Of a stretch of 64,000 nt of DNA, positions 7,894 to 38,437 are shown one piece after another. The stretch covers positions 186,001-250,000 of IMG/VR virus record IMGVR_UViG_3300029286_000009, one strand, 5' to 3'. The notes below the pieces were generated by a model, which saw nothing but the letters and a program-made list of their open reading frames with translations, was not told the DNA's origin and did no database searches. A program made the translations under genes and the position numbers. The DNA comes from a virus. How positions within the stretch are numbered: the stretch's first letter is position 1; every line of letters begins with the position of its first letter.

Positions 7894-9183
7894 TTAATCT
7901 AACATACTTACTAGCCCTTTTTCCAGAGCTATTTTTCTGTCTATAACTAAAATACCTGTATCACCCATTTTTTTCACCCGAGATTGTTCTTTAATTGCAA
8001 ACTTGGGTATAAATACTTTTTCCCCGTCCACTTCACATAGTAGTGCCTTATTAACTCCTGTGTCTTGGAGCACTCTTACATTATCAATTGTAGCTACTCC
8101 TGTTACGGTTGGAAGCTTATCTGCGTGCCTAAAAGCGTGGCACGTTGCACATAGTGGACGAAAATCTGTCCACAATTCAAAACCTACTCGATCGTATAGC
8201 ATGTGATGTAGGTGCACTGTAGACAGAGAAATTGGACGCAAACAATCCCAACAGCGATCAAACGGACCAGTAGGAGTAATCATGGCAGCTTTTTTGTTGC
8301 ACCACTCTGGCATCTTACGATATTCTTCATAAGATTTTTTTTCAAATCGTTTTACACCCATCACTTGGTTATTGGCTAGTATCTCGGTTATGTTGGTCTC
8401 TATAAATTTTAACTGCCGCCTAATCACGTCTCTTGAATAAAAGAAATACTTTAACACAATAGCATCAATCCGCATATGAAACTGATGATAATCTACAAAC
8501 ATCTGCATAGCTATCGCAAGTGGAACTGGTAAAGACTTTTTTGCTGGTATACCCCATTGTTTGCGATAATTTTCAAAATCAGTGCTATTACGTAGCTGAA
8601 AAGGAAAGTAAAGCGTTAAGACATCTTTGCTCCACCCTTTCCCTATGTATAAGCTTTTAAACCACTCCTTTGTTAGTGGGGTTACCGCAATTTTAGGTTC
8701 TACATAGTTAGACGCGTAGTTATCCCAACGATACTGAATACGAGGATATACCCATTCAGCTGCTCGTGGATCGTCTGCTATGAGTCCTCGGAGCAGTGTT
8801 ATGTCTTCATGGCATAGTTCTTGTTCTTTATCCCACTTACTCTTAAGCTCATATTTACCGCGAGTCATAACCGCAAATAATACATCTTCTGCCCAATCTC
8901 TAAAGGCTTTGGCTCTATCAGTCTTAGCTAGCATTGCTGCTCTTATGACTCCGTGGTAACTGATTACTCGTAGTTCTTGATTGCCTCCAGGTGTCGTCAT
9001 TTTGACGACCCCCTGTTTAGACTTGAATTCATCGGTATTTCTGTCTATTAAACGGTAAAAATTATGCGTGTTTGAATAACCTAGAGCGGCTGCGATGTGG
9101 GACATAACTGCCCACCGGTTTCCTTCGTGGTCATAAATTTCTATTTCTGTGTTTTCAAATTTTACTAATTCTGTATTATTCAT
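7894..9183 (-). CDS. BRO-N / central domain / HNH fusion protein
   Basis: 429 residues. Residues about 5-110 match the BRO-N antirepressor DNA-binding domain (HEGNRWAVMSHIAAALGYSN, then ELRVISYHGVIRAAMLAKTD). Residues about 165-215 carry a block shared with the products at 29899 and 37241 (LTKEWFKSLYIGKGWSKDVL, then TLYFP). The C-terminal third holds an HNH nuclease domain: CWDC about residue 313, HLHH about 328 and CATC about 348. BRO-N proteins usually act as phage antirepressors and HNH domains cut DNA. The combination suggests a DNA-targeted nuclease, perhaps a homing endonuclease. It overlaps the gene at 9180 by 4 bases. Confidence 0.75.
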   Translation of the reverse strand: MNNTELVKFENTEIEIYDHEGNRWAVMSHIAAALGYSNTHNFYRLIDRNTDEFKSKQGVVKMTTPGGNQELRVISYHGVIRAAMLAKTDRAKAFRDWAEDVLFAVMTRGKYELKSKWDKEQELCHEDITLLRGLIADDPRAAEWVYPRIQYRWDNYASNYVEPKIAVTPLTKEWFKSLYIGKGWSKDVLTLYFPFQLRNSTDFENYRKQWGIPAKKSLPVPLAIAMQMFVDYHQFHMRIDAIVLKYFFYSRDVIRRQLKFIETNITEILANNQVMGVKRFEKKSYEEYRKMPEWCNKKAAMITPTGPFDRCWDCLRPISLSTVHLHHMLYDRVGFELWTDFRPLCATCHAFRHADKLPTVTGVATIDNVRVLQDTGVNKALLCEVDGEKVFIPKFAIKEQSRVKKMGDTGILVIDRKIALEKGLVSMLD

Positions 9184-9500
9184 ATCTTTCCTTTTATCTC
9201 TTCCAGCAATTCCGTGGGGTTATGCCCATAATATTTGTCATTACGTTCCACATGATCCATTACACTTACAGACCAACGCCCGTGTTCTGCTTTTACACTA
9301 CTGAACAGGAGCATAAACACTACTGTAAGACCACGTTCTTCATTATAAAAAGTCTCTAAGTAAGCATAATCTAAGCCCCGAGAAGCCTTGGCAACATAAC
9401 CTTGTCCAATGATATAAGCGTAAAGTGCATCAAACTCGGGATATGTAATCTGTAAACTAGCAAGGATTTTGTTATGTTGTTGGTCGTCAAATTTATACAT
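9180..9500 (-). CDS. Unknown protein, 106 residues
   Basis: Ordinary globular composition with aromatic-rich middle (YAYLETFYNEERGLTVVFML). It overlaps both neighbours by a few bases. Not recognised; expressed in the leftward operon. Confidence 0.5.
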   Translation of the reverse strand: MYKFDDQQHNKILASLQITYPEFDALYAYIIGQGYVAKASRGLDYAYLETFYNEERGLTVVFMLLFSSVKAEHGRWSVSVMDHVERNDKYYGHNPTELLEEIKGKI

Positions 9501-9681
9501 TTAACTTCTTAACTCCTCGGTAACCCTTCCATGCGGGGAATAATCTTTCAAACTTTTCGATTATTTCTTCTCGGGTATGTTCTTCCACTAATATATACCG
9601 ACCTAGTTGTCCTACTCTTGCCTTCAAGTCGGCGTGTTCTTTAATATACGTATGGATATATTCAGCTTCATTTTTATTCAT
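9493..9681 (-). CDS. Unknown charged small protein
   Basis: 62 residues, ATG after GAGATAGGATA. Charged and helical (EYIHTYIKEHADLKARVGQL). Not recognised. Confidence 0.5.
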   Translation of the reverse strand: MNKNEAEYIHTYIKEHADLKARVGQLGRYILVEEHTREEIIEKFERLFPAWKGYRGVKKLNV

Positions 9682-9711
9682 TATCCTATCTCTGCAATGT
9701 TTCTCTCGAAC

Positions 9712-10125
9712 TCATATACCTGCTCCCAAGTCTTTTGTTCGTTTGTATTCCTCGGTTGATTCTAACACTTTAACCAGGTTTTTATTAAAGCATTCTTGTG
9801 TTTCCCCTAAACCATGCCTGTTTAAAGTATTTATTACCCAATTCATGGCATGAACAAGTGGTCTAAGATCATCTCGGAAGAATCCATCTTCATGTTTAGT
9901 GTAACCTTCGTTTTGTTCTTTTACAAAATCATATCTACGATCGTGTATCTGATCAACACATTCTTGTATAGTGTCGAGCCAATCCAATGTCGCTCTTATA
10001 TTTTCAACCCAATAATCCGGATTTACCCACCCGGATTCAATATCCTCTAAAAGGCATTCCATTCTCGACTGCTGCAAGCTTATACTTTCTACATACTGCC
10101 CGTCTTCTATTTTTTTATCTCCCAT
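9712..10125 (-). CDS. Unknown helical protein
   Basis: About 137 residues from the ATG after AAGGG (a TTG nine bases upstream is an alternative). Strongly helical and acidic, with possible coiled coil (LLEDIESGWVNPDYWVENIR). Not recognised. Confidence 0.5.
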   Translation of the reverse strand: MGDKKIEDGQYVESISLQQSRMECLLEDIESGWVNPDYWVENIRATLDWLDTIQECVDQIHDRRYDFVKEQNEGYTKHEDGFFRDDLRPLVHAMNWVINTLNRHGLGETQECFNKNLVKVLESTEEYKRTKDLGAGI

Positions 10126-10138
10126 AGACAACAACCCT

Positions 10139-10555
10139 TTATTTTTGTATTTGTCGTTCGCATTTGTGGCATTTCCAATATTTTATTGACATAAAATGGT
10201 CCCCCAAAAAACCGCCATAACCTGGAACAAAATATTTTTTAATTGTATGCATCGAAGTCCCACAATGGTAACATCTAATATGTGGGTTAGCTAGTCTATA
10301 TTCCTTCCATGCCGCACGAGCTTCTGATTCGGTATTGTAACGACGTCCGCCGATTCCCGACTTAAAGACCCGATATATTGCCCATATGCTATCTTTATGA
10401 TACCATATTAAAGAGTGTAAACCATCACCATTATAGAAAGCATGGATTATTTTAAAATAACCCCGTTTGATAGCTTGAGCGTGTCTTATATAGTGGTGGT
10501 TTGGTCCTAACCACTCTACTCCCTGGAATTTACTTTTACTAAAGGGTCTTGTCAT
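10139..10555 (-). CDS. Zinc-ribbon protein of unknown function
   Basis: About 138 residues from the ATG after TAGGAGAAAAAAA. The C-terminal part has two CxxC pairs (CYHCG and CHKCE), consistent with a zinc ribbon. The middle region is aromatic-rich (YFKIIHAFYNGDGLHSLIWY) and RRYNTESEARAAWKEY resembles a short DNA-interacting motif of phage proteins. Function unknown. Confidence 0.5.
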   Translation of the reverse strand: MTRPFSKSKFQGVEWLGPNHHYIRHAQAIKRGYFKIIHAFYNGDGLHSLIWYHKDSIWAIYRVFKSGIGGRRYNTESEARAAWKEYRLANPHIRCYHCGTSMHTIKKYFVPGYGGFLGDHFMSIKYWKCHKCERQIQK

Positions 10556-10566
10556 TTTTTTTTCTC

Positions 10567-10809
10567 CTAGTCGTGCCATCCCGAATTAGCACGATTGATG
10601 CCGGGGCCGGGTGTATATGGTCTAGTCTTATCCTTTTTGTTGGTTATACACTTAGCAAGTTCGGGGTCTACTTCAATGCCTATACCGCGAATTAGTTGTG
10701 TTGTACCGCATGCGACACACTGGTGTTGCTGCCACCACCCAGTGCTATCTCCAACATCAGCAATATATTCAAAAACTTTTTGCCCACATTCACAAACCAA
10801 ATCAGCCAT
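10567..10809 (-). CDS. Small zinc-ribbon protein
   Basis: 80 residues from the ATG after GAGGTGAC. CECG near the N-terminus and CVACG about residue 32 form a likely zinc ribbon. It overlaps neighbours by a few bases. One of at least eight CxxC microproteins in this operon. Confidence 0.55.
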   Translation of the reverse strand: MADLVCECGQKVFEYIADVGDSTGWWQQHQCVACGTTQLIRGIGIEVDPELAKCITNKKDKTRPYTPGPGINRANSGWHD

Positions 10810-10987
10810 TGTCACCTCGCAGTCCTTTAGTGGCGTGTTCCATGAAGTCCCCGCACTCTTTGTGCAGAATCACAAATTGTCCTCTATAAAAAGAGACCCA
10901 ACAATCTTCATCTTCTGCTACTAGTTCATTGCATTTTTCACAGGCACGCTCTAATATGTCTTTTCTTACCAGATCACGTGTTATCAA
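10802..10987 (-). CDS. Small CxxC protein
   Basis: About 61 residues from the TTG after GGAGAAGACC, where the start overlaps the stop of the upstream gene (TTTGATAA). It has CEKC and a later HKECGDF, so a zinc site is possible. The longer frame to 11041 would overlap the upstream gene by 58 bases and is less likely. Confidence 0.45.
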   Translation of the reverse strand: MITRDLVRKDILERACEKCNELVAEDEDCWVSFYRGQFVILHKECGDFMEHATKGLRGDNG

Positions 10988-11262
10988 AGGTCTTCTCCTA
11001 ATGCAAAATAGTCCTCTGGTTTCCCCGCTCGTTCCCAACACCGGTAGAATATATCGGATACTATAGGGACAGGAGTTTTATCATAAGCAATTAAAGCCAC
11101 GTGCTTTCCTTTGTCTTGTGCCCTTTTTATAATTGTGCTTAGAAGGATGTAACCTGCACTATCATCCTCATCATTGGATAAGTCTATATCCAACTGGTCT
11201 AAAAAGTCTGCTAGAATATAGTATGCATAGTCATCTATACTACGTTCAGTCCAATGCGACAA
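10984..11262 (-). CDS. Unknown acidic protein
   Basis: 92 residues, TTG start after AGGAGAAGACA. Acidic (DQLDIDLSNDEDDSAGYI). No recognised motif. Confidence 0.5.
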   Translation of the reverse strand: MSHWTERSIDDYAYYILADFLDQLDIDLSNDEDDSAGYILLSTIIKRAQDKGKHVALIAYDKTPVPIVSDIFYRCWERAGKPEDYFALGEDL

Positions 11263-11271
11263 TGTCTTCTC

Positions 11272-11439
11272 CTATTTCTTAATAAAAAACAAGATAGCGA
11301 GAGGTCCTAATGATATACATGCAATAAAAGCATCTACTGCATCAGGACCTATACTGCCCCATTTTTGGTATTCGCGATAACTTATCTGCCCGAAGGCGAA
11401 CAATCCGCACAATATCCAAGTTAGAACGATATAATACAT
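11272..11439 (-). CDS. 55-residue membrane protein
   Basis: Begins MYYIVLTWILCGLFAFGQIS and ends AILFFIKK. Two hydrophobic segments flank a polar loop, and ISLGPLAILFFI in the second resembles the LGPI segments of the products at 6775 and 7198. The start overlaps the upstream stop (TGATG). Probably a small two-helix membrane protein. Confidence 0.55.
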   Translation of the reverse strand: MYYIVLTWILCGLFAFGQISYREYQKWGSIGPDAVDAFIACISLGPLAILFFIKK

Positions 11440-11711
11440 CACGACTTGGGTTCTTCCTCTTTCTTCCTATACACATAACGTGCCAACCAACTGTGTCGGG
11501 GTGTGTTCTCCAAAAAGAATGCCATTATACCCAATACTAGAAGTAGAGAAAATATTCCAAAAAATAGACAGAATACAGCATAAATTAATCCTGAAAGGAT
11601 ATTTCCTACACGTAATCCATTATTTCCGTCGTACATGTTGCGCAGATGTGATAGAAAAAAGATTAAACCTGCTATTCCACCGCAAGTAAACCAAATGGCT
11701 CTAAAGTCCAT
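11439..11711 (-). CDS. Small membrane protein
   Basis: About 90 residues from the ATG in TAATG after GAGGAGTTAAAA. Two or three membrane helices (IWFTCGGIAGLIFFLSHL and LIYAVFCLFFGIFSLLLVLG), with the charged tail RKKEEEPKS. Same architecture as the other small membrane proteins here. Confidence 0.55.
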   Translation of the reverse strand: MDFRAIWFTCGGIAGLIFFLSHLRNMYDGNNGLRVGNILSGLIYAVFCLFFGIFSLLLVLGIMAFFLENTPRHSWLARYVYRKKEEEPKS

Positions 11712-11992
11712 TATTTTAACTCCTCTATAATTTCCCATTGTTCTGTGGTGCCCCGCCCCACGATTTTATCTAGGTAAGTGCGGGCTTCCTCCAGGGTGGT
11801 CCAATATGTTACTTTATGTCGCTTAATGTCCACATGATACACTAAATAGAATTTAGCATTTTTTTCCACTACCAAAGGGATTGTAAATTCATACAGGTAA
11901 CAATACTCGGATGCACGGTTGCAATAAAGAGATGTAATACCCCTGTAAACGTAACGGTCGCATACGATTTTTAATTCAGGTATTAATTGCAA
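11711..11992 (-). CDS. Unknown protein, 93 residues
   Basis: TTG start, ending in the coupling site for the next gene. Beta-rich middle (YEFTIPLVVEKNAKFYLVYH), then TTLEEARTYLDKIVGRG, a short helix pattern seen in many small phage proteins. Not recognised. Confidence 0.5.
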   Translation of the reverse strand: MQLIPELKIVCDRYVYRGITSLYCNRASEYCYLYEFTIPLVVEKNAKFYLVYHVDIKRHKVTYWTTLEEARTYLDKIVGRGTTEQWEIIEELK

Positions 11993-11997
11993 CTTAT

Positions 11998-12264
11998 TTA
12001 TCTTGTAAAGACTATTTGAAATTTTTGACTAACAGGAATCACTGAAGCAGAACACGCGGGGTTTTGACATTTGAATCCGGCATTGTGTCCGTCGATTGTT
12101 AATCTAAAAAGACTTTTACCACACCATGGGCAGGTTAACAAGATTTTAGATTTTTCGGCTGCGGCTTCTGTGGGTGTGTCATCTAAAATAAGCCACTCAT
12201 TTGCTATATCTGCTCCATTTATACTTATAAAAAACTCCTCTACCGTCTTTGGTTCTTTAGTCAT
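11998..12264 (-). CDS. Small zinc-ribbon protein
   Basis: 88 residues. CPWCG about residue 47 and CQNPAC about residue 68 form a zinc-ribbon pattern similar to Lar-type or restriction-alleviation-like phage microproteins (CPWCGKSLFRL). That resemblance is weak, so treat it as a zinc ribbon only. Confidence 0.55.
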   Translation of the reverse strand: MTKEPKTVEEFFISINGADIANEWLILDDTPTEAAAEKSKILLTCPWCGKSLFRLTIDGHNAGFKCQNPACSASVIPVSQKFQIVFTR

Positions 12265-12491
12265 GTTAATTCCTTTATTTGATATTTTTCTGATTCTCGA
12301 GCCCTAACTTCTTGACGTGTGGGTATTTTCCATTCTTTTATACGTTGCGAAAGCCAATGGCATCTGTATTTTTTACAAAAGAAGCACCAGTCACATTCTC
12401 CATAACAAGGTTTCCCCCACAGGTGCACTCGCCACTGGTGTTTCTGCTTAGCTTTGCGCGACATTACTCTACGTTCTGCTCTACTACGCAT
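12261..12491 (-). CDS. Basic Cys-rich small protein
   Basis: 76 residues, strongly basic (RRVMSRKAKQKHQWRVHLWG), with C-x3-C-x2-C-x2-C (CYGECDWCFFC). Ribosome site CCAGGAGCACC. Could bind zinc and nucleic acid. Upstream, 12500-12555 holds two short inverted repeats (AGTGAT/ATCACT and ATAGTCT/AGACTAT) that may attenuate or terminate. Confidence 0.55.
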   Translation of the reverse strand: MRSRAERRVMSRKAKQKHQWRVHLWGKPCYGECDWCFFCKKYRCHWLSQRIKEWKIPTRQEVRARESEKYQIKELT

Positions 12492-12555
12492 TGGTGCTCC
12501 TGGGGGTGTTGGAGTGATCGGTAATCACTGAGGACAGGATACCTTTTCGAATAGT

Positions 12556-12801
12556 CTAGAAAAAGAGACTATCCGGATTAAACTTTAATAACTCAACTAA
12601 CTTAGCCGTTTTTACTTTTAGTTGCTCCACGCATGCTGTCTCTAAACCATGGTCTAAGAAGTAACTAGCTCGGTGCAATGCACTTCCCCGTAAGTTCTTG
12701 TAAACTGATTCATAATTAAAAGGGTATTCCTTCATACACCACAGCTGTAGAACTTCAAGATATTTGTTTATTCCAATCCTGCTGCAATCTTCGTTCGTCA
12801 T
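12556..12801 (-). CDS. Unknown helical protein
   Basis: 81 residues from ATG after AGGAGACTAGGTAA. Helical, with LELLKFNPDS-type end. The stop codon lies inside an ATAGTCT/AGACTAT hairpin. Not recognised. Confidence 0.5.
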   Translation of the reverse strand: MTNEDCSRIGINKYLEVLQLWCMKEYPFNYESVYKNLRGSALHRASYFLDHGLETACVEQLKVKTAKLVELLKFNPDSLFF

Positions 12802-13092: not shown

Positions 13093-13101
13093 GCTATCCT
13101 C

Positions 13102-13938: not shown

Positions 13939-13945
13939 ATTACTC

Positions 13946-14426: not shown

Positions 14427-14427
14427 T

Positions 14428-15249: not shown

Positions 15250-16530
15250 GTCAAATACCGCCAGCTAAAGCAGGCGGCTTGTAAGTCGTACTTACGATAG
15301 GCTGTTTGACATCAGCCCGACTTCCAGCGGACATGCCCTTGGAAGCAAGGTAGTTTAGGCGAATATTTTTACTAGCGTTGAGGTCTGCATTGTGTTGAAA
15401 ACCACAAGACTTACATACAAACCAAGACTGGCTCTGCCGGTTCCTTCTCGCTATGTATCCGCAACGGGAACACTTCTGGCTTGTGTATCGAGGATCAACA
15501 TATTCAATCGCAATGCTCCTCATCCTGCCTTTGTAATCCAAGAAAGAACGAAGTCTCTCAAAAGACCAAGAGTGGATTCTTCGCCGTTGTTTTCTTTTCG
15601 CCTTTACTCTGCCTCGAATATCAACAAGATCCTCAAGGACAACGACAGAACCGGGGACAACTGTATCAACTATTCGCCTGGAAATTACGTGGTCACAATC
15701 CTTTCGGAAGCGGTTTTCCTTCTGCGAAAGCTTTTTAAGGTGTCTTTTCGCAGAATCAGTGCCTTTCGATTGGAGAGAGCGTTTGATTCTAAAGTATTTC
15801 TTGGTGGTTTCTTTCCATTGTCGTTCACCAATAAAGTCGGCATTACTGGTGACTGCGGGACGGTTAACTCCGAGGTCAATTCCTACGGTGATGTTCGTGG
15901 GCTCAACAACTGCATCGTCTGTAGAGACAACAACGTGCAAAAAGACTCTTCCGTCTCGCTTGAAGCAGAGGTCAGAGGAGCAGACTTTCCAGGAAAGATA
16001 TCTGCGGTAGTAGTCACAGACTATCAACGTAATGGGGATTCTTCCCTCGACAGAAGAAAGAAAAGCGGTTCCCTTATCAAGTCTAATCGTGGCGGATCTA
16101 GCATCATATCTAACTGTGAGGGCTTTCCCTGTAGGGCAAGAAGCCTTTTTACCTTTTTTCAACTTTGCTTTAGCAGATTTCAGAGCTTCTGTTGCTTTCA
16201 TTCTAGCGGAACACACGAGTTGACTCGGAAGGGACGTGGTTTCTCTTTCAAAACGATAGGTAGCATGGTGCAAATCAACTCCGTTGACCCTTGGGGCTTC
16301 CCATCCTGTTTGACAGACCCTAGCAAAAGACTGCGAAAATTGTTCTGCGGTCTCTTTGAGAGCTTGCAATTTGTCACTTTTAACAGGAAGTTTGAGAGTT
16401 ACGGTTTGCACGTTTGCTCCTTCATATACAAGGTAAAGCATCCGCAACTAAAAGTCAAGGCACAAATACTAAGAAAGGAGGAGCCGGCTTCCTCTGCCGC
16501 CTAAAGACGGCAGTCTCCGCCGGGACAAAT
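15250..16530 (-). mobile_element. TnpB-only IS200/IS605-type element 1
   Basis: A complete tnpB gene lies between a left-end hairpin (CTGCCG/CGGCAG inside CCGGC/GCCGG, about 16482-16525) and a right-end hairpin (GCCGCC...GGCGGT with a CTTTAGC loop, about 15252-15275). No tnpA is present, so it is non-autonomous for transposition. The tnpB stop lies within the right-end hairpin, as expected for an element whose guide RNA overlaps the gene end. Boundaries are estimated from hairpins and the broken host gene. Confidence 0.7.
15251..16441 (-). CDS. tnpB: TnpB RNA-guided nuclease (Fanzor/Cas12 ancestor family)
   Basis: About 396 residues. RuvC-like catalytic motifs are all present: GIDLG about residue 188, VLEDL about residue 272 and NADLNAS about residue 358. 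A CxxC...CxxC zinc finger (CSRCG, CKSCG) lies between the second and third. TnpB cuts DNA next to a target motif under guidance of an RNA made from the element's right end; here that would come from about 15250 leftward. The ATG at 16441 is preferred over the upstream TTG. The gene has a more GC-rich composition than its neighbours, a sign of recent arrival. Confidence 0.85.
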   Translation of the reverse strand: MLYLVYEGANVQTVTLKLPVKSDKLQALKETAEQFSQSFARVCQTGWEAPRVNGVDLHHATYRFERETTSLPSQLVCSARMKATEALKSAKAKLKKGKKASCPTGKALTVRYDARSATIRLDKGTAFLSSVEGRIPITLIVCDYYRRYLSWKVCSSDLCFKRDGRVFLHVVVSTDDAVVEPTNITVGIDLGVNRPAVTSNADFIGERQWKETTKKYFRIKRSLQSKGTDSAKRHLKKLSQKENRFRKDCDHVISRRIVDTVVPGSVVVLEDLVDIRGRVKAKRKQRRRIHSWSFERLRSFLDYKGRMRSIAIEYVDPRYTSQKCSRCGYIARRNRQSQSWFVCKSCGFQHNADLNASKNIRLNYLASKGMSAGSRADVKQPIVSTTYKPPALAGGI

Positions 16531-17502: not shown

Positions 17503-17860
17503 GGTTACCTCATCAAATATTCCTCACGGATACCCCGCACTTTAGTGCTGGGGAGGAAGTGAGACCCTGGAAACTAACAAAGTGCTAGCCCTTTCCAGTA
17601 GCCTGAGATTTCTAGCGTGGATTGACTTGTGGAGGCTTTGTCCACTACCATCCCTTATATCAAAATTTCCTGTTGATCTTCTGCCAAAAAATAAATGCTT
17701 TCTTGCCTTCCCAAGCGACTTTGTCAAATCGCCTGAATCCTAATATCTCTCTAGGGGCAGTATTACGAATATGGCTTCTGGCACCCTTGTATAACTTTCT
17801 ATTACACTTTCTAACTTGCTTGATTGTAAGTGGTGTAGTTCGCTCTTGGTTTTCTCCACC
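17503..17860 (-). pseudogene. Decayed IscB element remnant (3' end only)
   Basis: The reverse strand from about 17860 reads GGENQERTTPLTIKQVRKCN, then RKLYKGARSHIRNTAPREIL, matching the C-terminal quarter of the intact IscB at 39227. A one-base insertion in a T-run after KAFIF shifts the frame; the next frame (17727-17542) continues FGRRSTGNFDIRDG to SLPPQH. The right-end hairpin at about 17530-17562 is kept, with loop-flanking bases changed in a compensatory way (GCACTAAAGTGC versus GTGCTAAAGCAC in the intact copy). N-terminal RuvC and HNH regions are missing, so no nuclease can be made. Confidence 0.8.
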
Positions 17861-23411: not shown

Positions 23412-24269
23412 TTAATGTGTTCCGCCTAAAAATAGCTGATCCATTAACTCATCTTTAGATTCCAACTGGGGTGTCTGATTAAAACCATTTTTTTCTAATT
23501 TCTCATTTATTTTTGCAACTAAATCACAGTAGCTGATGTTCCAATTTGCTTCTTTTAAAGTTTGTGCTAGGTAATATGTCATAGCACCATTATAATGCCC
23601 GTCTATAAACGCGTCCGCACTTGTTTGTGCGTCGCTTGAGCCCGAAATCAACACAGCATTTCCTTGTGTAGTAACATTGTGTAGAAACGACTGCGACCTC
23701 AGTCTATCCTGTCTCAGACGCGATGTCATTGGCTTAAGATTCTCGTCTAATTCCATATCACCAGATTCTAATAACACATGCAAAGGCGGTGGCATATACC
23801 TGCTCTTAACAAAGTGCCCATTTTTAACTGTCGGGGAATTTTTTAGTATGGTTCCAGAAAAACATGCATCAATGTGACATAGGAGGTGTGCGTTTGGATT
23901 CGCACACATAATTACCTTATTAATGTCATCATCCCGTAAAGGAAGATCCCAATCCATGTCGATCGGACATATACATTCATCCATACGGTCGGTTTCCCAT
24001 GTCGCTGTTTCGGTTGTGCAATTAACTTGAGTACCGTGCCCTGAGTAGCCCCAAAATGCTTTGTCGTTGTCTTGTAGGTTATTTACTAACCACTGAAGAC
24101 CTCTCATTATGTTTTTTCTGGTGGCCTTTTTATCATCTAAAATCTTGAATTCTGAGAAGCCATAGACGTCTTTTAGAATTTTGTAAAGCAGAATGACATC
24201 ATTTAGGCAACCTGAAAGAGGCGAATCCGGGTAAGCATTGATTGCAATGAGCAGGGCACGTTTCTTCAT
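23412..24269 (-). CDS. Metacaspase-like cysteine peptidase (C14 family)
   Basis: 285 residues, about one caspase-fold domain with no extension. Catalytic dyad is His78 (YSGHGT) and Cys136 (DACFSG). The metacaspase-type substrate pocket (DECICPIDMD, about 97-106) and the later SSDAQTSADAF and GAMTYYL segments are also present. Members cut after Arg or Lys and are usually bacterial orthocaspases or eukaryotic death proteases. The gene is in an operon with a HicB-like gene upstream and a zinc-ribbon gene downstream. The substrate, host or phage, is unknown. Confidence 0.85.
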   Translation of the reverse strand: MKKRALLIAINAYPDSPLSGCLNDVILLYKILKDVYGFSEFKILDDKKATRKNIMRGLQWLVNNLQDNDKAFWGYSGHGTQVNCTTETATWETDRMDECICPIDMDWDLPLRDDDINKVIMCANPNAHLLCHIDACFSGTILKNSPTVKNGHFVKSRYMPPPLHVLLESGDMELDENLKPMTSRLRQDRLRSQSFLHNVTTQGNAVLISGSSDAQTSADAFIDGHYNGAMTYYLAQTLKEANWNISYCDLVAKINEKLEKNGFNQTPQLESKDELMDQLFLGGTH

Positions 24270-26364: not shown

Positions 26365-27237
26365 ATGTTGCTATTACTCGGGCAAAACACTGTTACTGCT
26401 GGAACTATAAAAAATGCAAAGTGGTTGCACTTACCTGGGTATGCTCCTAGATGCTTATGCGGTGCCGAAGATGGGTTTGCTGTAGTTAACCCGTACGCGT
26501 ACCCGGTATCTGCGAATGAGTGTATCTCGGTAATCATGGATGGTACTGTTAATTGTATGTGTTACTACGACAATGAGGTTTTGGCGGGGACCAACACAGG
26601 AATATATAGTCTTGATTGGTCTTCTTATGGGCACTATGCAGATGGTGGTAATCCTCTGGATGCAAGTGATAGCCTTTCTCTTAATTATAATACAACAAAT
26701 GGGTTGCTCTCTGACCAAATTATCTCCTTAGATGCATGTAATGAGTATCTGGTAGTGGTGACTTCTGTGGGGCTAAGTTGGAAAAAATCCAGTGGTGAGT
26801 TTATTAACTATGTGACTACTTCTGGTCATAAGGCATTTGTTGATTCTAGTCCTACTACCTACTTAGCAGATGGAAATACACTCAGAATTAAATATGGTGA
26901 ACCAGTATCTTTTGACGCATGGGATACGGAAATTGATCTGGGGGAGAGTATAAATGACCTTTGGGTAAGTAGTAATGTCATTTTTATGGCAACTGATATT
27001 GGCATAAGTATTTGGAATAGCGGTAGTCTTTATAACTACACGGCGGTCTCTGGTAGCTTACCTTTACGTCGTATTACAGGTGAACTTGATACCACATTTG
27101 ATTGGGGACATATTTTCGTCGCTAGTAGTGATTGTATAAATATATTTAATTTGAAACAGAAAGCAATAGAGAGTCATATAGACTTTAATGATTCTGCTGT
27201 GTTATGTATTGACTACCCTAGAATATACAGTAGGTGA
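26365..27237 (+). CDS. Beta-propeller-like protein
   Basis: 290 residues. Several repeats of the pattern (V/A)xTNxGIYSLDW, VVTSVGLSWKKSSGE, FMATDIGISIWNSGS and VASSDCINIFNLKQ, spaced about 40-50 residues, resemble the blades of WD- or sensor-type beta-propellers. No signal peptide. Could be a virion or attachment component; the neighbours are not structural genes, so its role is open. Confidence 0.5.
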   Translation: MLLLLGQNTVTAGTIKNAKWLHLPGYAPRCLCGAEDGFAVVNPYAYPVSANECISVIMDGTVNCMCYYDNEVLAGTNTGIYSLDWSSYGHYADGGNPLDASDSLSLNYNTTNGLLSDQIISLDACNEYLVVVTSVGLSWKKSSGEFINYVTTSGHKAFVDSSPTTYLADGNTLRIKYGEPVSFDAWDTEIDLGESINDLWVSSNVIFMATDIGISIWNSGSLYNYTAVSGSLPLRRITGELDTTFDWGHIFVASSDCINIFNLKQKAIESHIDFNDSAVLCIDYPRIYSR

Positions 27238-27273
27238 GCCAACAAAATAACTAACTTAGTATAGGAGATAAGA

Positions 27274-27603
27274 ATGGGAGATTTTTCACGGAATGTTGAC
27301 CCTGTGCCTCTTAATGGCGGGGTTTTAGTAAGGGTAGTAGGTAATAGCCAAATGACTACAGGTGGTATTTATCTACCTGAAACTGCATCTACCCGCCCAG
27401 TTCAAGGTGTAGTAGAGTGTGTAAGTCGCGGTTATTATGATCCATCCGGCTCATGGCTGGACCACGAGGTACACATAGGTGATGTAGTAATTTTCAATTG
27501 GAGGTCAGGTTTTGATTTAATCTTAGATGATGCGGAATATCGTATCATTCACGAACGCGACATTGTCGCAATACTAAAAGGAGCTAACTATGGCGAAGAA
27601 TGA
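27274..27603 (+). CDS. GroES-like co-chaperonin
   Basis: 109 residues, the length of phage co-chaperonins. The GroES pattern is clear: VLVRVV near the start, mobile-loop segment TGGIYLPETASTRPVQGVVE, then HIGDVVIFNW, LILDDAEYRIIHERDIVAIL. Such proteins cap the host GroEL ring and adapt it to fold phage proteins, often the capsid protein (as T4 gp31 does). No GroEL gene is in the window, so it must use the host's. The mobile loop is unusual in carrying MTTGGIYLP. Confidence 0.85.
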   Translation: MGDFSRNVDPVPLNGGVLVRVVGNSQMTTGGIYLPETASTRPVQGVVECVSRGYYDPSGSWLDHEVHIGDVVIFNWRSGFDLILDDAEYRIIHERDIVAILKGANYGEE

Positions 27604-29103: not shown

Positions 29104-29621
29104 GGGGCACACAGGTATCGACAGACGTTATGAGTAGATTTGTATTGGTGGTCGGTGTGAGTGGTACCGTAAATCATTCGAATTATAAATGCCGAAGATA
29201 ATTCTTTCGACATGCTCTCAGCTTTTTGTGAAGCCGACCGTAAGGTTAGTGTAGCATACGCTGGTTAATAGGGCGGAGTTCCCAGTAACTTATCAACAGA
29301 AAACTGGGTGGCGGAGGCAAGTGGGTTTTATACCTGCTTCCTCTCCTGGTTACGAGGCTAAACTGACCTGGTGGAGGCACGCGGGAAACCGCGTCCCCTA
29401 AATCCTATGCAAGTAGGTATCCTAGTGTCAGGCATTAGGATAGAGATGGGTAGGGTAATCGCCACCGTGCGGGAAACCAAACCTTCTAGCCCGCAAAAGT
29501 CAGCGGCGGGGTCTCGAAAAGGCTGGCAAACTCTCTGTCGGGAGTATAAATATGGACTACACCATCTAAATTTACATTTCGAAAGGCGGACTGGATCTGG
29601 GTTCGACTCCCAGGTGCTCCA
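29104..29621 (+). ncRNA. ssrA: tmRNA (SsrA-like)
   Basis: The 5' end GGGGCAC pairs with the 3' GTGCTCC (one G-U), and the T arm (CTGGG TTCGACT CCCAG) is complete. The 5' segment CACAGGTATCGACAGACG fits the conserved tmRNA start (GATTCGACRG). Helix 2 is GTAGATTTG with TAAATTTAC plus TGGTGGTC with GACTACACCA. The resume codon is GCC at 29191, nucleotide 88 of the RNA, as in E. coli (90). The tag reads AEDNSFDMLSAFCEADRKVS, then VAYAG, and ends in TAA TAG (29266-29271). It is about 25 codons, longer than the usual 8-15, and lacks the usual LAA end. CCA is not encoded and must be added. Total 518 bases, longer than most. Confidence 0.85.
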
Positions 29622-29833
29622 TAAAATTGTCTTATAACAAAGCATTGCTCCCGAAGACATACAAGATTTGTATAATAAACATTGTAATTGGGTCGATGTC
29701 AAAGGTTTTAGGCATCTCCGATCGCCAACTGCGACGTATCCGAAAGATGCATATTAGCTGATCTGCCATGTGTAGAAACAGTAAAGTTAACGTCAACAGT
29801 GCTAGGCGGGGCGTTGATGGTTGATACTAGTCT
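29622..29833 (+). other. Non-coding region after the tmRNA with possible structure
   Basis: No gene. Stems include GACAT/ATGTC (about 29657-29701) with ACAA/TTGT inside, GCATCT/AGATGC (about 29713-29751) and CGTCAAC/GTTGATG (about 29793-29820). Might hold another small RNA or the processed tail of the tmRNA transcript. I see no tRNA cloverleaf. Confidence 0.35.
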
Positions 29834-29898: not shown

Positions 29899-31125
29899 AT
29901 GGCGGAAGTTTTGAGTCAAGAAGTAGTTGTATATCAAGAGCATATAGTGGATTTTTATGGAGACCAAATTATATCGATACAGGATGAAAATAATGATGTG
30001 TGGTCTCCTGTAAAGGGATTGTGTGGTGCGATTGGCATCAAAGGTGTCCAAGACCAGATTAACAAAATTAAAAATGACGGGGCCTTCAGATTCAAGGCTA
30101 GCCTTGTAACTGCCCTAGATGGTAAGAATTACTCAACTTTTTGTATTCACGCTGATGATATTCCGATGTGGTTAGCAACAATTGGTACCGGTCGCGTTGA
30201 TGAGAGTGTAAAAAGTAAGTTGATTCTATATAAGAGAGAGTGTGCTAATGTATTGCGGGACTACTGGACTAAGGGTGCTGCTGTAAATCCCCGTTTGGGT
30301 AATCTTGATGTAGACCAGATTAAGAACATTGTTAATGAAGCTCTACAGGTTGCATTGGACGAATACAGACAGGCTAGGACGCCTGAGGAAATTGCTCAAC
30401 TTATCTTTGAGCGAGACGTTGTTATTTTGGCTGAGACGGCGAACCGTGTAGAAAGTCCCTTTCGTGATTCTATTTACAGACGCATCGAAGTGCTTATGGA
30501 CAGTCGTTTTGGTAAACTAGAACCTGCTGAAGAAGCAGAATTAGTAAAGGGACTTACTCCTTTGACCGAGAGCCTATTCCGTAAGCTATATTTGGGGCAG
30601 GGTTGGTGCCGAGATAAACTAGCTCTTTATTTCCCTAAGGAACTGAGTAGCAAGACACAGTTTGACCAGCTCCTAAAGATGTGGGATATTCCAGCACCTA
30701 AAAGGCAGTCTAGAACTTCTATCGCTTTCGCCCGCCGACTTTTGCGAGAAAATCATGTTAATAAGAAGACCATAAATCAGTTGATTACTGAGTTCAATAG
30801 GTCGCGGGAGTCTATTTTGCGGGCTATCAGTGATCAATGGAATTCTTTGAACAAGTCTTTCAAGAAATATTGCACCGCAGGCATAATTCCTAAAGGCAGG
30901 GCTTACAGTGATTATATTGATAGGTCTCCACTTTGGGTAGCCAAGCGTGAAGCTTTTAAGGAGACTTTTGATAATACTTGTTTCTATTGTGGATACCAGT
31001 CCCCTACTGGTATTGCGGTACACCATCTAAACTATATCCGTAGCGGACAAGAACTACCAACAGATTTGGAAATTGTTTGTAACACTTGCCACCAGAAGCG
31101 GCACAAAGAGAAGTATAACGTGTAA
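29899..31125 (+). CDS. P22_AR_N / central domain / HNH fusion protein
   Basis: 408 residues, ribosome site GTAAGGAGAGGTTAA. Residues about 15-130 are a P22 antirepressor N-terminal domain (FYGDQIISIQDENNDVWSPV, then KRECANVLRDYW). Residues about 210-260 carry the shared central block (LTESLFRKLYLGQGWCRDKL, then ALYFP). The C-terminus has an HNH domain (CFYCG, AVHHLNY, CNTCH). Same architecture as the products at 7894 and 37241, with about one-third identity in the central block by eye. Likely a sequence-specific nuclease or regulator derived from antirepressors. Confidence 0.75.
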   Translation: MAEVLSQEVVVYQEHIVDFYGDQIISIQDENNDVWSPVKGLCGAIGIKGVQDQINKIKNDGAFRFKASLVTALDGKNYSTFCIHADDIPMWLATIGTGRVDESVKSKLILYKRECANVLRDYWTKGAAVNPRLGNLDVDQIKNIVNEALQVALDEYRQARTPEEIAQLIFERDVVILAETANRVESPFRDSIYRRIEVLMDSRFGKLEPAEEAELVKGLTPLTESLFRKLYLGQGWCRDKLALYFPKELSSKTQFDQLLKMWDIPAPKRQSRTSIAFARRLLRENHVNKKTINQLITEFNRSRESILRAISDQWNSLNKSFKKYCTAGIIPKGRAYSDYIDRSPLWVAKREAFKETFDNTCFYCGYQSPTGIAVHHLNYIRSGQELPTDLEIVCNTCHQKRHKEKYNV

Positions 31126-31136: not shown

Positions 31137-31766
31137 ATGGACTTTGAAATAGAAGTTAGGTCAGCAGGTGAGCTTTGTGAGAAGCTTCGTAATGTTACGT
31201 TGAGGGGCAGTACAATACCCCCTTATTTGAATTCTTTTATTAGAATTGAAACCTTTAACCCCCGCAATTTATCACCGTGTCAGCGGTACGCTTTATTACC
31301 GGAGCTCAAGAAAATAGAGGAATTGCGGTGGGAAATTCTTAGAGAATACGGGCAAGACATTTTACAGCTAAATGGCTATCTGAAGTGTCACTACCCAGAT
31401 AAGACTATTGACATATTACCGCCGGTCTGTGAGGAGTATGTAACACCTTGGGGTGAGTTGAAAGCCATCATAAACGACGGGTTGCATCGGGTATTTTTAG
31501 CCTATCAGATGGGTATTCCTGTGAACGTTGCTTACATTAGGGGGGTGCATCCGGGTTACCCCTATTACGCGCATATGAATCCCAAAGGATTTGACGACAT
31601 TGAACTTATAGAGGAAATACCGGAGAATTATGTGAAGAAGTTTCATGTTGCCAAAAACCACAAAGAGCTTTTCAGAAATTTCAGTAGTAAATTTGAGAAC
31701 GTAGGGGACTCAAGACCTAGGAAACAAGAGACCTTCCCTGAGGAAGTTTTAAAGCTTTTGGGATAA
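31137..31766 (+). CDS. ParB/Srx-like domain protein
   Basis: 209 residues. The segment LPPVCEEYVTPWGELKAIIN followed by DGLHRVFLAYQMGIPVNVAY fits the ParB/sulfiredoxin-like fold, whose hallmark is a G(H/L)HR motif after a short strand. DNA-binding helices of partition ParB proteins are not evident. Could act as a nuclease, kinase or CTPase-like regulator; unassigned. Confidence 0.5.
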   Translation: MDFEIEVRSAGELCEKLRNVTLRGSTIPPYLNSFIRIETFNPRNLSPCQRYALLPELKKIEELRWEILREYGQDILQLNGYLKCHYPDKTIDILPPVCEEYVTPWGELKAIINDGLHRVFLAYQMGIPVNVAYIRGVHPGYPYYAHMNPKGFDDIELIEEIPENYVKKFHVAKNHKELFRNFSSKFENVGDSRPRKQETFPEEVLKLLG

Positions 31767-31847
31767 ACAATCTAGAGGTACAAGACACACAATTGAACCG
31801 GCTAGAAACAAACCTACACATGTAACTATCTTCTCGGACTGGAAAAA

Positions 31848-33796: not shown

Positions 33797-34202
33797 TAGG
33801 GCTTTCTATACTGCCGCTATAGACTTTGTGACTGAAAACCTTGAGATAGTAAACAATTTTGTTGCTCTAAATGGGTTGTCGGGGTCGTTGGGCCAGGATT
33901 TGTCTGACGTGGTCATAATAGGCATCAAGAAGTGGCTAACGAGTCCAGAAGGTGAGGGTTGGTTGGGTACCTTAGGATATAAACGTTCTGGTAAACCTGA
34001 AAAGACTTATTTAGATCGGGTATGTCCAGTTTGTAGCGGAATACATATGCGGTATGCTAATGTAAGATGTGAGCGGTGTGGGCGCTATATGTGCCATCCT
34101 TGTACGTCTGTAGTTGATTCTAGATATCATATCATATGGTGTGACCATTGTATCGCAGACGTGGCGTTAATAAACTTTCCTAGTAGCATTAGAGAATACT
34201 AG
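33762..34202 (+). CDS. Zinc-binding protein of unknown function
   Basis: 146 residues, overlapping the upstream gene by 35 bases. A cysteine-rich domain of about 95-135 has CPVC, CERCG, CHPC and CDHC, arranged like a treble-clef or RING-type two-zinc fold. N-terminal helices are acidic. Function unknown. Confidence 0.5.
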   Translation: MSIEIMDITKNDRAFYTAAIDFVTENLEIVNNFVALNGLSGSLGQDLSDVVIIGIKKWLTSPEGEGWLGTLGYKRSGKPEKTYLDRVCPVCSGIHMRYANVRCERCGRYMCHPCTSVVDSRYHIIWCDHCIADVALINFPSSIREY

Positions 34203-34225
34203 TTTTTTTATTTAGGAGGCTTATA

Positions 34226-34468
34226 ATGGCAAGAGAGTGGGAGGAGACCCCAGAAGCTGACAATCTGGATTATGATGACAACCCCTACATTTCTCCGGGT
34301 GATAATGCTTCTCGTCGGTATTGGGCACGTGAAGCATGGTTATACCGCCCAGAAGACTTAGAGGAGCATGACAGTCGCCGTGGGACTGACCGGAGGTATA
34401 TGCGTGGTATGAACAAATATTTGCGAGACGAACTTCGTTTGCGAAATAATACTGAGGGGTTGGTTTGA
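34226..34468 (+). CDS. Small highly charged protein
   Basis: 80 residues, ribosome site TTAGGAGGCTTATA. Very rich in Asp, Glu and Arg (EDLEEHDSRRGTDRRYMRGM), probably largely disordered. Not recognised; overlaps the next gene by 4 bases. Confidence 0.5.
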   Translation: MAREWEETPEADNLDYDDNPYISPGDNASRRYWAREAWLYRPEDLEEHDSRRGTDRRYMRGMNKYLRDELRLRNNTEGLV

Positions 34469-34650
34469 TGAAGAAAACAGGTAAATTTTTTCAGAAAATG
34501 TTAGGGGATATACATAACGAAACTTGTATGTGTCGGCGTTGTCGTGCTAGGGTAGATGCTATGGAAAGGCGTCCCATACGCTTAGACTCAATACGGAACT
34601 GGGATGATGTTAGGGAAATTACCGAAGTTACAGAAGAATATAACGAATAG
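34465..34650 (+). CDS. Small basic CxxC protein
   Basis: 61 residues. CMCRRCRARVDAMERRPI holds two close CxxC motifs, basic. Overlaps the MetAP gene by 47 bases in another frame. Confidence 0.45.
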   Translation: MMKKTGKFFQKMLGDIHNETCMCRRCRARVDAMERRPIRLDSIRNWDDVREITEVTEEYNE

Positions 34651-35353
34651 TCAAAATTTACGAGAGGCTGGACGTGTCCTACGGGACGCGTTCAACCTCA
34701 TCTTAACGTATGTCCAGCCGGGGGTCTCCTTGCAGGATATAGACTTTCGTGTAGAGAAATTCTTACGTCAAAACCACGCCTTGTCCACGCCCCGTCTCCT
34801 CAATTTTCCTTACCAGTTTTCGGCATCCATTAATTATGAAGTAGTAAATGGATACCCAGATGATAGGTGTGTGGTAGCAGGCGATATAATATCAATAGAT
34901 ATGGGCATTTTTTGTAGGGGTGTGTTTGTGGATAAAGCGGTGTCTGTTGCATTTCCTCCAGTTAGTGGTAAAGTAGCTTACTTACTTAAAGCCGCACAAG
35001 ACTGCTTAGATGTAGGAATACGGTCTTCTGCAGCGGGAGCTAATAATAAGATTATAGGGAAGATGATAGAAATGACAGCGAATTATTACGGAATGTCTAC
35101 ATCTCCTCGCTTCTCTGGGCATGCTATAGGTGAGGAGCCACATATGTATCCTTTAATACCCAATGTGGCTAACGCTGCGGTTGAGGAGGTTATACTGAGA
35201 GAAGGGCAGAGTATTACGATTGAACCCATAGTATTCTATGGCAGTTCTCATTCTATCGATTCTTCAAAACATCTTATTATTTCTGACTCAATAAGTGCTC
35301 ACTTTGAAGAGACTATAATTATTCATAGTAACCATGTTGAGGTTGTGACATGA
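34604..35353 (+). CDS. map: Methionine aminopeptidase, type I-like
   Basis: About 249 residues. The two metal-binding Asp (Asp99, Asp110), His173 (SGHAIG), Glu207 (TIEP) and Glu235 fit the pita-bread fold. The His that lines the catalytic pocket (CHGIP in E. coli) is Asn82 here (VNGYP), which may lower or change activity. His180 is kept. It would remove initiator Met from phage proteins. A phage MetAP is unusual. The exact start is uncertain, since the first ATG overlaps the upstream gene by 47 bases. Confidence 0.85.
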   Translation: MMLGKLPKLQKNITNSQNLREAGRVLRDAFNLILTYVQPGVSLQDIDFRVEKFLRQNHALSTPRLLNFPYQFSASINYEVVNGYPDDRCVVAGDIISIDMGIFCRGVFVDKAVSVAFPPVSGKVAYLLKAAQDCLDVGIRSSAAGANNKIIGKMIEMTANYYGMSTSPRFSGHAIGEEPHMYPLIPNVANAAVEEVILREGQSITIEPIVFYGSSHSIDSSKHLIISDSISAHFEETIIIHSNHVEVVT

Positions 35354-35682
35354 AAGAACTTCTATTTGTTATATGTGCTTATTCACTGGCAAGTATACTA
35401 GTTGAACAAGGTATTTTTAAAGAGCCCCGCGAATGGCTAAAATCTTGTGTGGCAGACAATTCTAACTGGTTGCTACGCAAGTTTTGTGCTTTAATCCGTT
35501 GTATGTGGTGTGCGGGGGTATGGTGCGGATTTATACTATGTTGGATGGGGTTTAATATAGTAGATATAAATCACTGGGATTTTTTCTTTTGTGGGCTGAT
35601 AAGCGGTTTTACTACGTATTTAATTCATCAATTTATGTTGCGTTTAGATATATATTTGAAAGAATTTGGGATTGAGTCTTAA
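35350..35682 (+). CDS. Small membrane protein, CxxCxGxW type
   Basis: 110 residues, ATGA overlap. Two or three hydrophobic segments. The motif CALIRCMWCAGVWCGFILCW resembles the DUF1360 family, known from phages and sporulation genes. Membrane location likely; function unknown. Confidence 0.5.
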   Translation: MKELLFVICAYSLASILVEQGIFKEPREWLKSCVADNSNWLLRKFCALIRCMWCAGVWCGFILCWMGFNIVDINHWDFFFCGLISGFTTYLIHQFMLRLDIYLKEFGIES

Positions 35683-35700
35683 TTGGCTCTCTGACAGGGA

Positions 35701-36165
35701 ATGTTAATCGTGACCTATTGGGACGATGAGGATAATAGAAAGGTATTAAGGGAAGAAAAACTGCGTGAAAAGCGGGGGCTCCTTGTTAAATCTGCTCCTC
35801 CACCAGTTGAGTCAGCTATAGATAAAGAACATTTAGATAAGGTTCTTGCTATCTTAGAGCAACAAATGCAATTGACTGCCGCACAAACACAGCAGCTGAA
35901 CGAATTGCATCAAGCATTAGATAACCAAGGGCAGGTTTTATCTAAGCTTTTAGAAAAAGAACCTGTTGTTATAACAGAAGGTGGCATTACAAAAACTGTA
36001 AAGAGGGCTTCCGAAGAATTGCCTATTCTTGGTGATATTGATGTAAATGTTGTGGATACTTCAGGTATCGAGACACAGGGGGAGGCAGGAGAGCAAAAAA
36101 CAGAGGGCAATAGCGTAAAAGACCGTGTAGCTAGACTACGGGAATTAAAGAACAAGGGGAAATAA
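35701..36165 (+). CDS. Coiled-coil protein next to actin-like ATPase
   Basis: 154 residues. N-terminal basic stretch, then a predicted coiled coil (LDKVLAILEQQMQLTAAQTQ, then QLNELHQALDNQGQVLSKLL) and an acidic disordered tail ending in a basic helix. Position before the actin-like gene makes an adaptor possible (compare ParR or other segregation partners). That is inference only. Confidence 0.5.
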   Translation: MLIVTYWDDEDNRKVLREEKLREKRGLLVKSAPPPVESAIDKEHLDKVLAILEQQMQLTAAQTQQLNELHQALDNQGQVLSKLLEKEPVVITEGGITKTVKRASEELPILGDIDVNVVDTSGIETQGEAGEQKTEGNSVKDRVARLRELKNKGK

Positions 36166-36167
36166 AG

Positions 36168-37223
36168 ATGGAGCAAAATCAGGAATTACTTAAAGAAATA
36201 CCGGTATCTATTTCTTATCTTTCAGGAATCGGAGTCGATATTGGAACTAGCTTTCTTCAAGTAGCGAGAGAGAGAACAGATGGCAAGGTTGAGTTTGTGT
36301 CTGAAAGGGACGCTTTCTATGCGATTAAACCCACGTCGGCGGTATCCGCAAAATTTATTGAAAAATCTCTTGTTCAGAAGGGGGCTTTTGTCTTAAAATC
36401 TGATGGCATCTTTTATGTAGTGGGTAGAGAGGCGATTGCTACAGCGATAGAAAGGGGTGGCTCGGTGGAGAGACCACTAAAGAAGGGTGTCCTTAGTATG
36501 AAGGATAAAGATGCAATGGGAATGCTTGCGGTTTTGCTTAAGTCGCTTGTCAAAGAAGCTCAAACCCCAGGAGAAATATGTGTTTATTCCTATCCGGCTG
36601 ACCCGTTAGACCAGTCGTTTGATGTAGTATATCATCAACATAGGATGGGAGAAATTCTAGGTAAAATGGGGTATAAAGCTGTACCACTGTTGGAATCAGA
36701 AGCTTTAGCGTACAGTGAGCTTATGGATGAAGATTTAACCGGAATTGCGGTTTCATGCGGTGCTGGTATGTTTAATTTTGCGTGTTTTTCAGTTGGACAG
36801 TGTCTTCTTAGCTTCAGTATAGCCCAAGGTGGTGATTACATTGATAAATCTGTAGCTAAACCTCTAGACATTTCGGAGACCGAAGTGCAGGCGGAAAAGG
36901 AAAGTCCAACTATGGATTTGAATAATCCTAAAGGACAGATACAAGAAACTATAGTGATGTATTATGACAATTTAATCAAATATGTTTGTGATGTCTTAGA
37001 AAAGAAGATTGGGCAGTTCGATGAAATGCCTAAATTCACTAAGCCTATAACTATAGTTATATCTGGAGGCACTAGTCTTCCTAAGGGCTTTATGGAAAAG
37101 ATGTCTGTTGCACTTTTATCTAAAAATTTTCCATTTACGATTGGCAACATAAAACGTGCAGGAGATCCGCTCACGGCAGTTGCGAATGGTTGTTTAATAT
37201 TTTCTCAAATGATGAGAGAATAA
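36168..37223 (+). CDS. Actin-like (ParM/MreB superfamily) ATPase
   Basis: 351 residues. Phosphate-1 motif GVDIGTSF (22-29), a phosphate-2-like GAGMFNFACFS about residue 205, and the adenosine-type motif ISGGTSLPKGF about residue 300. The length fits bacterial actins of the ParM/Alp class. Such proteins form filaments that position or segregate DNA or phage particles. Jumbo phages more often encode tubulin-like PhuZ. None is visible here. Confidence 0.75.
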   Translation: MEQNQELLKEIPVSISYLSGIGVDIGTSFLQVARERTDGKVEFVSERDAFYAIKPTSAVSAKFIEKSLVQKGAFVLKSDGIFYVVGREAIATAIERGGSVERPLKKGVLSMKDKDAMGMLAVLLKSLVKEAQTPGEICVYSYPADPLDQSFDVVYHQHRMGEILGKMGYKAVPLLESEALAYSELMDEDLTGIAVSCGAGMFNFACFSVGQCLLSFSIAQGGDYIDKSVAKPLDISETEVQAEKESPTMDLNNPKGQIQETIVMYYDNLIKYVCDVLEKKIGQFDEMPKFTKPITIVISGGTSLPKGFMEKMSVALLSKNFPFTIGNIKRAGDPLTAVANGCLIFSQMMRE

Positions 37224-37240
37224 TCTTTAAGTAAAAAGGA

Positions 37241-38437
37241 ATGGAAAAAATGGGAAAGGAAATAGTAACAAAGGAATTTAATTTTATGGAAGACACTATT
37301 GTGGCGGTTGACCAAAACGATGTGTGGTATATTTCTCCACGACATATTTGTGAAAATGTAGGATTAGATTGGGCTTCTCAGAGTAGAAAAATTGAGAAGG
37401 AGTCTGAGAAGTTCAACCGTTGTCTTATGACAACAGTTGGTCACGATGGTAAACTGCGTGAAATGGTTATGATACCTGTGACACGTATAAATACATGGAT
37501 ATTGAGTATCAATGCAAAGCGTGTCAAAAACTTAAGAGTAAGAGCATATCTACGGAAATACCAAGATCAGCTATCCGATTGGTTGTATGAAGCGGGATTT
37601 CTAGGAGCGGCGGTAAATAAGGATGTGTTGTTACTCCCTGCGGAACGACAGGTGGAAGTATTGGGAGATGCTCTTCACAGAGCTCGCTTGCAAAGTGAAC
37701 CATTGAATGAGTATCAAGAGAAGATAGCGACCATTTTAGGTTTACCTGACTTAGAAGGGATGGATAAATATAAGACTCAGCGTCTGCAGATGTTGACAGA
37801 TGTTAAATTAGGTGTTGCTAGTCCTTTGTTCTCAAAAGGTTTGCGGGGAGTAGTAAGACTAACTGATGAACTATTTTACATCGCTTATATGATAGAAAGG
37901 TGGTGTGTTGATAAGCTGATTTGCTGTTTTCCACAAGACTTGCCCACGCCTGTGGCGATAGAGCAATATATAAGAGATAAAGGTTATTGTGAACCTTGGG
38001 TGGTTAAACCCATTAGGCACGCAGATGCACGAAGGGTGGTTAAGCTTAATACTCTGTTTAGCTATAGTATTTCTGATTTAATAATACGATTTAATAAACC
38101 AGCTGAATTGATACACAATGCTATGTTTAGAGTAGTAAAAGATATGGAGGATGTATTTACTGCGACTGAAGTTAAACTGGAACTTCCAGCCATAAGAGAC
38201 AGAGCCAGTATGTCAGCTAGGCGGGAGCAGTATATGAAAACGGCTGAGTGGTGGGATAAGCGAAACGCTTTTTTCAAAGTTTTCAATTGTTGTGTAGTTT
38301 GTGGGGATATGGAGGTTGCATCTTCGCGATTTGAGGCACACCACTTGCACTATGATACATTAGGATTTGAGTCACCTTGGGATTTAGTGCCCTTGTGTAA
38401 AGATTGTCATACTAAGGTAGAAGGAAGGAGTAGGTGA
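37241..38437 (+). CDS. P22_AR_N / central domain / HNH fusion protein
   Basis: 398 residues, start uncertain between two nearby ATGs. Residues about 10-125 are a P22 antirepressor N-terminal domain (VWYISPRHICENVGLDWASQ). The shared central block is weaker (LTDELFYIAYMIERWCVDKL, then CCFP). The C-terminal HNH (CVVCGDM, HHLHYDTLGFESPWDLVPLC, KDC) is clear. Third member of the fusion family. Sits between the actin-like gene and a small gene, an intergenic place typical of homing genes. Confidence 0.75.
   Translation: MEKMGKEIVTKEFNFMEDTIVAVDQNDVWYISPRHICENVGLDWASQSRKIEKESEKFNRCLMTTVGHDGKLREMVMIPVTRINTWILSINAKRVKNLRVRAYLRKYQDQLSDWLYEAGFLGAAVNKDVLLLPAERQVEVLGDALHRARLQSEPLNEYQEKIATILGLPDLEGMDKYKTQRLQMLTDVKLGVASPLFSKGLRGVVRLTDELFYIAYMIERWCVDKLICCFPQDLPTPVAIEQYIRDKGYCEPWVVKPIRHADARRVVKLNTLFSYSISDLIIRFNKPAELIHNAMFRVVKDMEDVFTATEVKLELPAIRDRASMSARREQYMKTAEWWDKRNAFFKVFNCCVVCGDMEVASSRFEAHHLHYDTLGFESPWDLVPLCKDCHTKVEGRSR

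Follow-up and report, generated by a model that had tools for sequence, protein, structure and literature searches.

Three phage genes joining antirepressor-type N-terminal domains to HNH nuclease domains, probable homing endonucleases of a new combination

What is the role of three genes, dispersed among unrelated neighbours in one phage genome, that each begin with a domain typical of antirepressors and continue into an HNH nuclease domain? These genes, here called A, B and C, lie in a stretch of 64,000 nucleotides (G000:C1:186001-250000; hereafter the window), which forms part of a 259,732-base virus record. A preliminary description of the window proposed that they could be a new kind of homing or inter-phage exclusion nuclease that uses antirepressor domains for targeting. 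Below we consider their architecture (Table 1), their presence in related phages, and the relationships among their parts.

Table 1 Positions in the window of genes A, B and C, their domains, the features flanking sites B and C, and the tract of gene C that diverges from the near-identical contig G004
Feature	Position	Strand	Remarks
Gene A	7894..9183	-	429 aa; Bro-N, central block, HNH, C-terminal SH3-like beta domain
A, Bro-N	8875..9144	-	aa 14-103; Pfam 8.3e-12
A, central block	8335..8694	-	aa 164-283
A, HNH	8125..8253	-	aa 311-353; under Pfam cut-off, CxxC/HH/CxxCH kept
tmRNA, left flank of interval B	29104..29624	+	Rfam
Gene B	29899..31125	+	408 aa; P22_AR_N, central block, HNH; downstream of tmRNA
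B, P22_AR_N	29947..30282	+	aa 17-128; Pfam 9.4e-26
B, central block	30541..30903	+	aa 215-335
B, HNH	30979..31110	+	aa 361-404; 2e-4, exceeds Pfam cut-off
Right flank of interval B	31137..31766	+	orthologous in three relatives
Actin-like gene, left flank of site C	36168..37223	+	orthologous in three relatives
Gene C	37241..38437	+	398 aa; P22_AR_N, diverged central block, HNH
C, P22_AR_N	37277..37591	+	aa 13-117; Pfam 2.6e-25
C, divergent tract	37570..37948	+	27 of 52 differences from G004 within 379 bp
C, central block	37829..38206	+	aa 197-322
C, HNH	38291..38419	+	aa 351-393; just under Pfam cut-off, matches PHROG HNH families
Right flank of site C	38439..38717	+	orthologous in three relatives

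The order of antirepressor domain, central block and HNH domain that had been proposed for the three open reading frames is borne out by Pfam and BLASTP alike, the product of gene B aligning with that of gene C over almost its full length (E 1e-29) and with that of gene A from the central block through the HNH domain (E 3e-25). As in antirepressors of the P22 Ant and Bro-N types (PF10547, PF02498; phrog_524, phrog_130), the N-domains score well above the Pfam cut-offs; yet the similarity to these antirepressors is mainly in the N-terminal half, and the C-terminal part is made up of the central block and HNH domain instead. No match to an antirepressor C-terminal domain (KilAC/ANT or P22_AR_C) was found with Pfam in any of the three products at E values up to 1, and the HNH domain stands where such a domain would be. 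Against the HNH profile PF01844 only B passes the cut-off (21.9 vs 21.4 bits), with C at 19.9 bits and A at 12.9. The PHROG HNH families clearly match B and C; the corresponding region of A matches the named PHROG HNH families weakly (0.04) and has its best PHROG match in phrog_8060 (5.5e-6), a family without assigned function. The residues of the CxxC...HH...CxxCH pattern are invariant in A, B and C. AlphaFold2 modelled the N-domains poorly (pLDDT mostly <50), and the additional C-terminal beta domain of A confidently (pLDDT about 80-89), weak Foldseek matches of the latter including SH3 domains.

The central block, of approximately 120 amino acids, is common to all three products, and Z-scores against shuffled sequences (32 for A-B, 21 for B-C and 5.6 for A-C) indicate that the family is not a product of chance. 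The motif by which it was originally recognised, LTxxxFxxLYxGxGWxxDxLxLYFP, fits only A and B exactly, while C reads LTDELFYIAYMIERWCVDKLICCFP, such that the motif as first written describes two of the three copies. Exactly three copies exist in the whole 259.7-kb record. The block also proved to be without a name, as first stated: profile searches of Pfam, PHROGs and NCBIfam and sequence searches of the PDB returned no named match, and no well-known nuclease-free family emerged as its source. The HNH domain itself is of a type (Y...G.E...DL..LC..CH) that is shared with a type I-E HNH-Cascade protein (PDB 8yb6), phrog_119 and phrog_8060, but similarity to these ends at the HNH domain or shortly before it, leaving the block's first half unmatched.

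Outside the record, we found the central block only in G004, a 50-kb contig that is near-identical to the window, and not in the records of the three relatives considered below. Phages and plasmids searched by tblastn, 396 genomes from one phylum searched with a profile and, G004 aside, viral and genome contigs scanned for peptide patterns yielded matches to the antirepressor N-domain or the HNH domain and none to the block, while the exact degenerate-codon pattern of the motif occurred twice in bacteria, in neither case within an open reading frame carrying the motif. Since the prefilters of these searches were narrow, the result does not amount to proof that the block is absent elsewhere. 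In an AlphaFold2 model of the block of B, built on an alignment of the three sequences, residues 221-320 form two successive three-helix units (pLDDT mostly 70-85), and from this model we consider the block to be helical and probably a DNA-binding domain. Foldseek gave no match at E<1, although several of the weak matches were helix-turn-helix proteins. A profile comparison of the block with the helix-turn-helix region of a relative's endonuclease was negative, as was the PDB sequence search, and we consequently did not assign the block to the helix-turn-helix class; that it is helix-turn-helix-like is a guess.

Relatives of the phage were recruited via the terminase large subunit (TerL), at identities of 48-61%, and comprise G001 (545 kb, TerL 61%), G002 (67 kb, 55%) and G003 (211 kb, 49%), all of which are metagenomic and possibly fragments. 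TerL also led to a fourth phage, L049, whose distance was too great for it to be informative on site C, and a search with the actin-like gene as query added no further phages to these four. Around site C, gene order is kept in the relatives. The site is empty in G002 and G003, where only 2 and 14 bases, respectively, separate the actin-like gene from the orthologue of the gene at 38439, and in G001 the same place is taken by a gene for an unrelated 224-aa HNH protein (phrog_2255, 1.2e-20). The insertion site of gene C is therefore clean. With gene C situated about 3.2 kb upstream of the gene for TerL, and by analogy with HK97 gp74, a precedent discussed in PMC10448857, the proteins might be HNH helpers of DNA packaging encoded near the terminase. 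However, two relatives possess the same terminase block without gene C and the third has an unrelated HNH gene in its place, and on this synteny we reject such a role for gene C; with A and B, moreover, located a long way from the terminase, packaging is an extremely improbable function for the family.

The interval that holds gene B, from the tmRNA to the gene at 31137, similarly lacks the fusion gene in G001, G002 and G003, and contains LAGLIDADG-like genes in G001 and G003 and no endonuclease in G002. A small gene that is present here in G002 and G003 is missing from the window, and B is consequently not a clean single insertion. For region A we found no syntenic counterpart in the relatives. 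The suggestion that the copies are distributed as homing genes would be is thus upheld for B and C, given that the same intergenic places in relatives are either empty or hold other endonucleases, and the genes are not always present at the same site. The tmRNA was also identified by Rfam in G002 (L035 12968-13470) and G003 (L036 13061-13567), in the corresponding position among the genes, and G001 has a similar-looking stretch there that is called by neither tool.

A fourth gene of related design lies outside the window, at G000:24431-25000, and encodes a 189-aa protein in which P22_AR_N (4.5e-20) is followed by MUG113/T5orf172 (2.6e-14), T5orf172 being a nuclease domain of the GIY-YIG superfamily (PMC8263062). 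It is flanked by a recA-like gene on one side and by the following gene of a replication block on the other, and this block occurs without it in G001 and G003. The fusion also overlaps a small nuclease-like gene at the latter's start (G000:C1:24431-25341; L056 4432-5342). The N-domain of C aligns with that of the GIY-YIG-like fusion with a score of 209 (39/94 identical), compared to 171 with a stand-alone antirepressor N-domain protein of G001 and 85 with B, and the N-domain of A barely aligns with the others; in the central block, by contrast, the closest pair is A-B (score 158). Kinships of the N-domain and the central block thus disagree, from which it follows that these parts have different histories and that the N-domain is an exchanged module. 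On these alignments, the antirepressor N-domain has moved between nuclease types, namely HNH and GIY-YIG-like. Shuffling of antirepressor-type domains is reportedly the subject of a 2002 paper by Iyer et al.

Given the annotation of Bro-N and P22_AR_N as antirepressor domains and the weak HNH domain of A, the three proteins could be transcription regulators or antirepressors in which HNH was co-opted for binding rather than cutting. We regard this as quite unlikely, because the zinc-binding and HH residues are unchanged in all three, the same type of antirepressor N-domain is joined to a different nuclease fold in the same genome, and the pattern of occupied and empty sites is compatible with mobility.

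Since two related phages have nothing at the clearest site, that of gene C, the three genes are most likely selfish homing genes: we put at about 0.7 the probability that A, B and C are free-standing homing-type endonuclease genes with shuffled antirepressor N-domains as DNA-binding modules. Bro-N-type domains bind DNA, and under the homing interpretation the Bro-N or P22_AR_N domain of each protein would do so and set its specificity, with the helical central block probably also binding DNA and contributing to that specificity. The HNH domain would then cut the same gene interval in a related phage without the gene, and recombinational repair of the cut would copy the nuclease gene into the empty allele, while the antirepressor N-domain would be swapped between HNH and GIY-YIG-like nucleases. 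Points against homing are region A, which lacks a syntenic counterpart, the interval of B, which is not clean, the HNH domain of A, which scores below the Pfam cut-off, and the number of relatives, which is only three.

That phages carry homing genes beside essential genes, with DNA-binding ends that have been exchanged, is established (PMC10448857). The genes described here resemble those of the T4 Mob type and the T5orf172 and IPA-HNH genes of ICP1 (PMC10448857) in that one terminus would bind DNA and the other is a nuclease, in their occurrence as single genes beside essential genes, at places with varying endonucleases, and in their domain shuffling. The ICP1 homing genes that have been described use T5orf172, HNH_3 with a zinc finger, or HNH with AP2 (PMC10448857), unlike A, B and C, where the N-terminal module consists of Bro-N or P22_AR_N and the unnamed helical block; neither antirepressor nor KilA is mentioned in PMC10448857. 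Because swapping of DNA-binding modules among free-standing homing genes of phages is already known (PMC10448857, PMC8263062), A, B and C constitute a new combination within an established kind, and the preliminary description went too far in suggesting a new kind of nuclease. What appears to be new is Bro-N or P22_AR_N as the DNA-binding end, with two nuclease folds in one genome, together with the unnamed block. A literature search of partial coverage, which took in few subscription journals, returned no description of a homing gene combining an antirepressor N-domain with a nuclease.

Comparison of the window with G004 revealed 52 differences over 47,384 aligned bases, the concentration of which in one tract of gene C (Table 1) is extreme (binomial 1e-42 per window, for a 379-base window that was chosen after the fact), with fewer differences flanking the tract at 35783-36707 and 38460-38484. 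The 27 nucleotide differences in the tract are mostly silent and result in only 5 amino-acid changes. This is compatible with a different allele having been imported while the function of the protein was maintained, but could instead reflect the assembly of mixed strains. A second cluster, of ten differences, is located at 26380-27457 of the window, at the end of G004.

Constraint at the protein level in gene C would also suit exclusion nucleases, by which the phage would cut the DNA of co-infecting phages or satellites in analogy to Odn of ICP1, with the antirepressor domain serving to recognise operators or replication origins of these competitors. Odn (Gp88) is a fusion of a T5orf172 nuclease with RepA_N that has been turned against a satellite (PMC8263062), and it resembles A, B and C in uniting a homing-type nuclease with a DNA-binding domain from another gene family. 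It differs from their pairing of antirepressor N-domain and HNH, however, in pairing RepA_N with a GIY-YIG-like domain and in having a demonstrated target (PMC8263062). A, B and C are scattered singly among operon genes and their sites in relatives hold other endonucleases, as expected of selfish genes; the curated defence models of PADLOC gave only weak matches (E above 0.004), and no target was seen. Exclusion as the primary role of these genes is thus unlikely in our view. A broader scenario, which we also consider unlikely, would have antirepressor N-domains serve the mobile HNH and GIY-YIG nucleases of phages generally as a swappable module for targeting, the central block represent a new DNA-binding domain, and the nucleases recognise, through the antirepressor domain, regulatory DNA or repressor complexes of competing phages, thereby excluding those phages in addition to homing.

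If the homing interpretation is correct, some phage genes that are annotated as antirepressors via an N-terminal Bro-N or P22_AR_N domain are in fact homing nucleases, and the antirepressor N-domain represents a testable DNA-targeting module common to two nuclease folds. Relatives in which the sites are empty provide ready substrates for direct testing.

The phage is rich in further mobile nucleases besides A, B and C. An IscB-like gene (38993-40435, +; RRXRR 7.8e-62, HNH) has a HEARO RNA directly upstream and no counterpart at that place in G001, G002 or G003, and a broken fragment at 17509-17842, with DNA 72% identical to the IscB gene in its 3' portion, is a probable IscB remnant. The loci at 15251-16447 (-), 60727-61848 (+), 45411-46229 (+) and 60083-60640 (+) comprise two genes recognised by eye as TnpB-like and two that are LAGLIDADG-like. 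The window additionally encodes a caspase-like peptidase (23412-24269, -; Peptidase_C14, 9.2e-30), which is unusual as a conserved phage gene, and which has orthologues of 43-55% identity in all three relatives.
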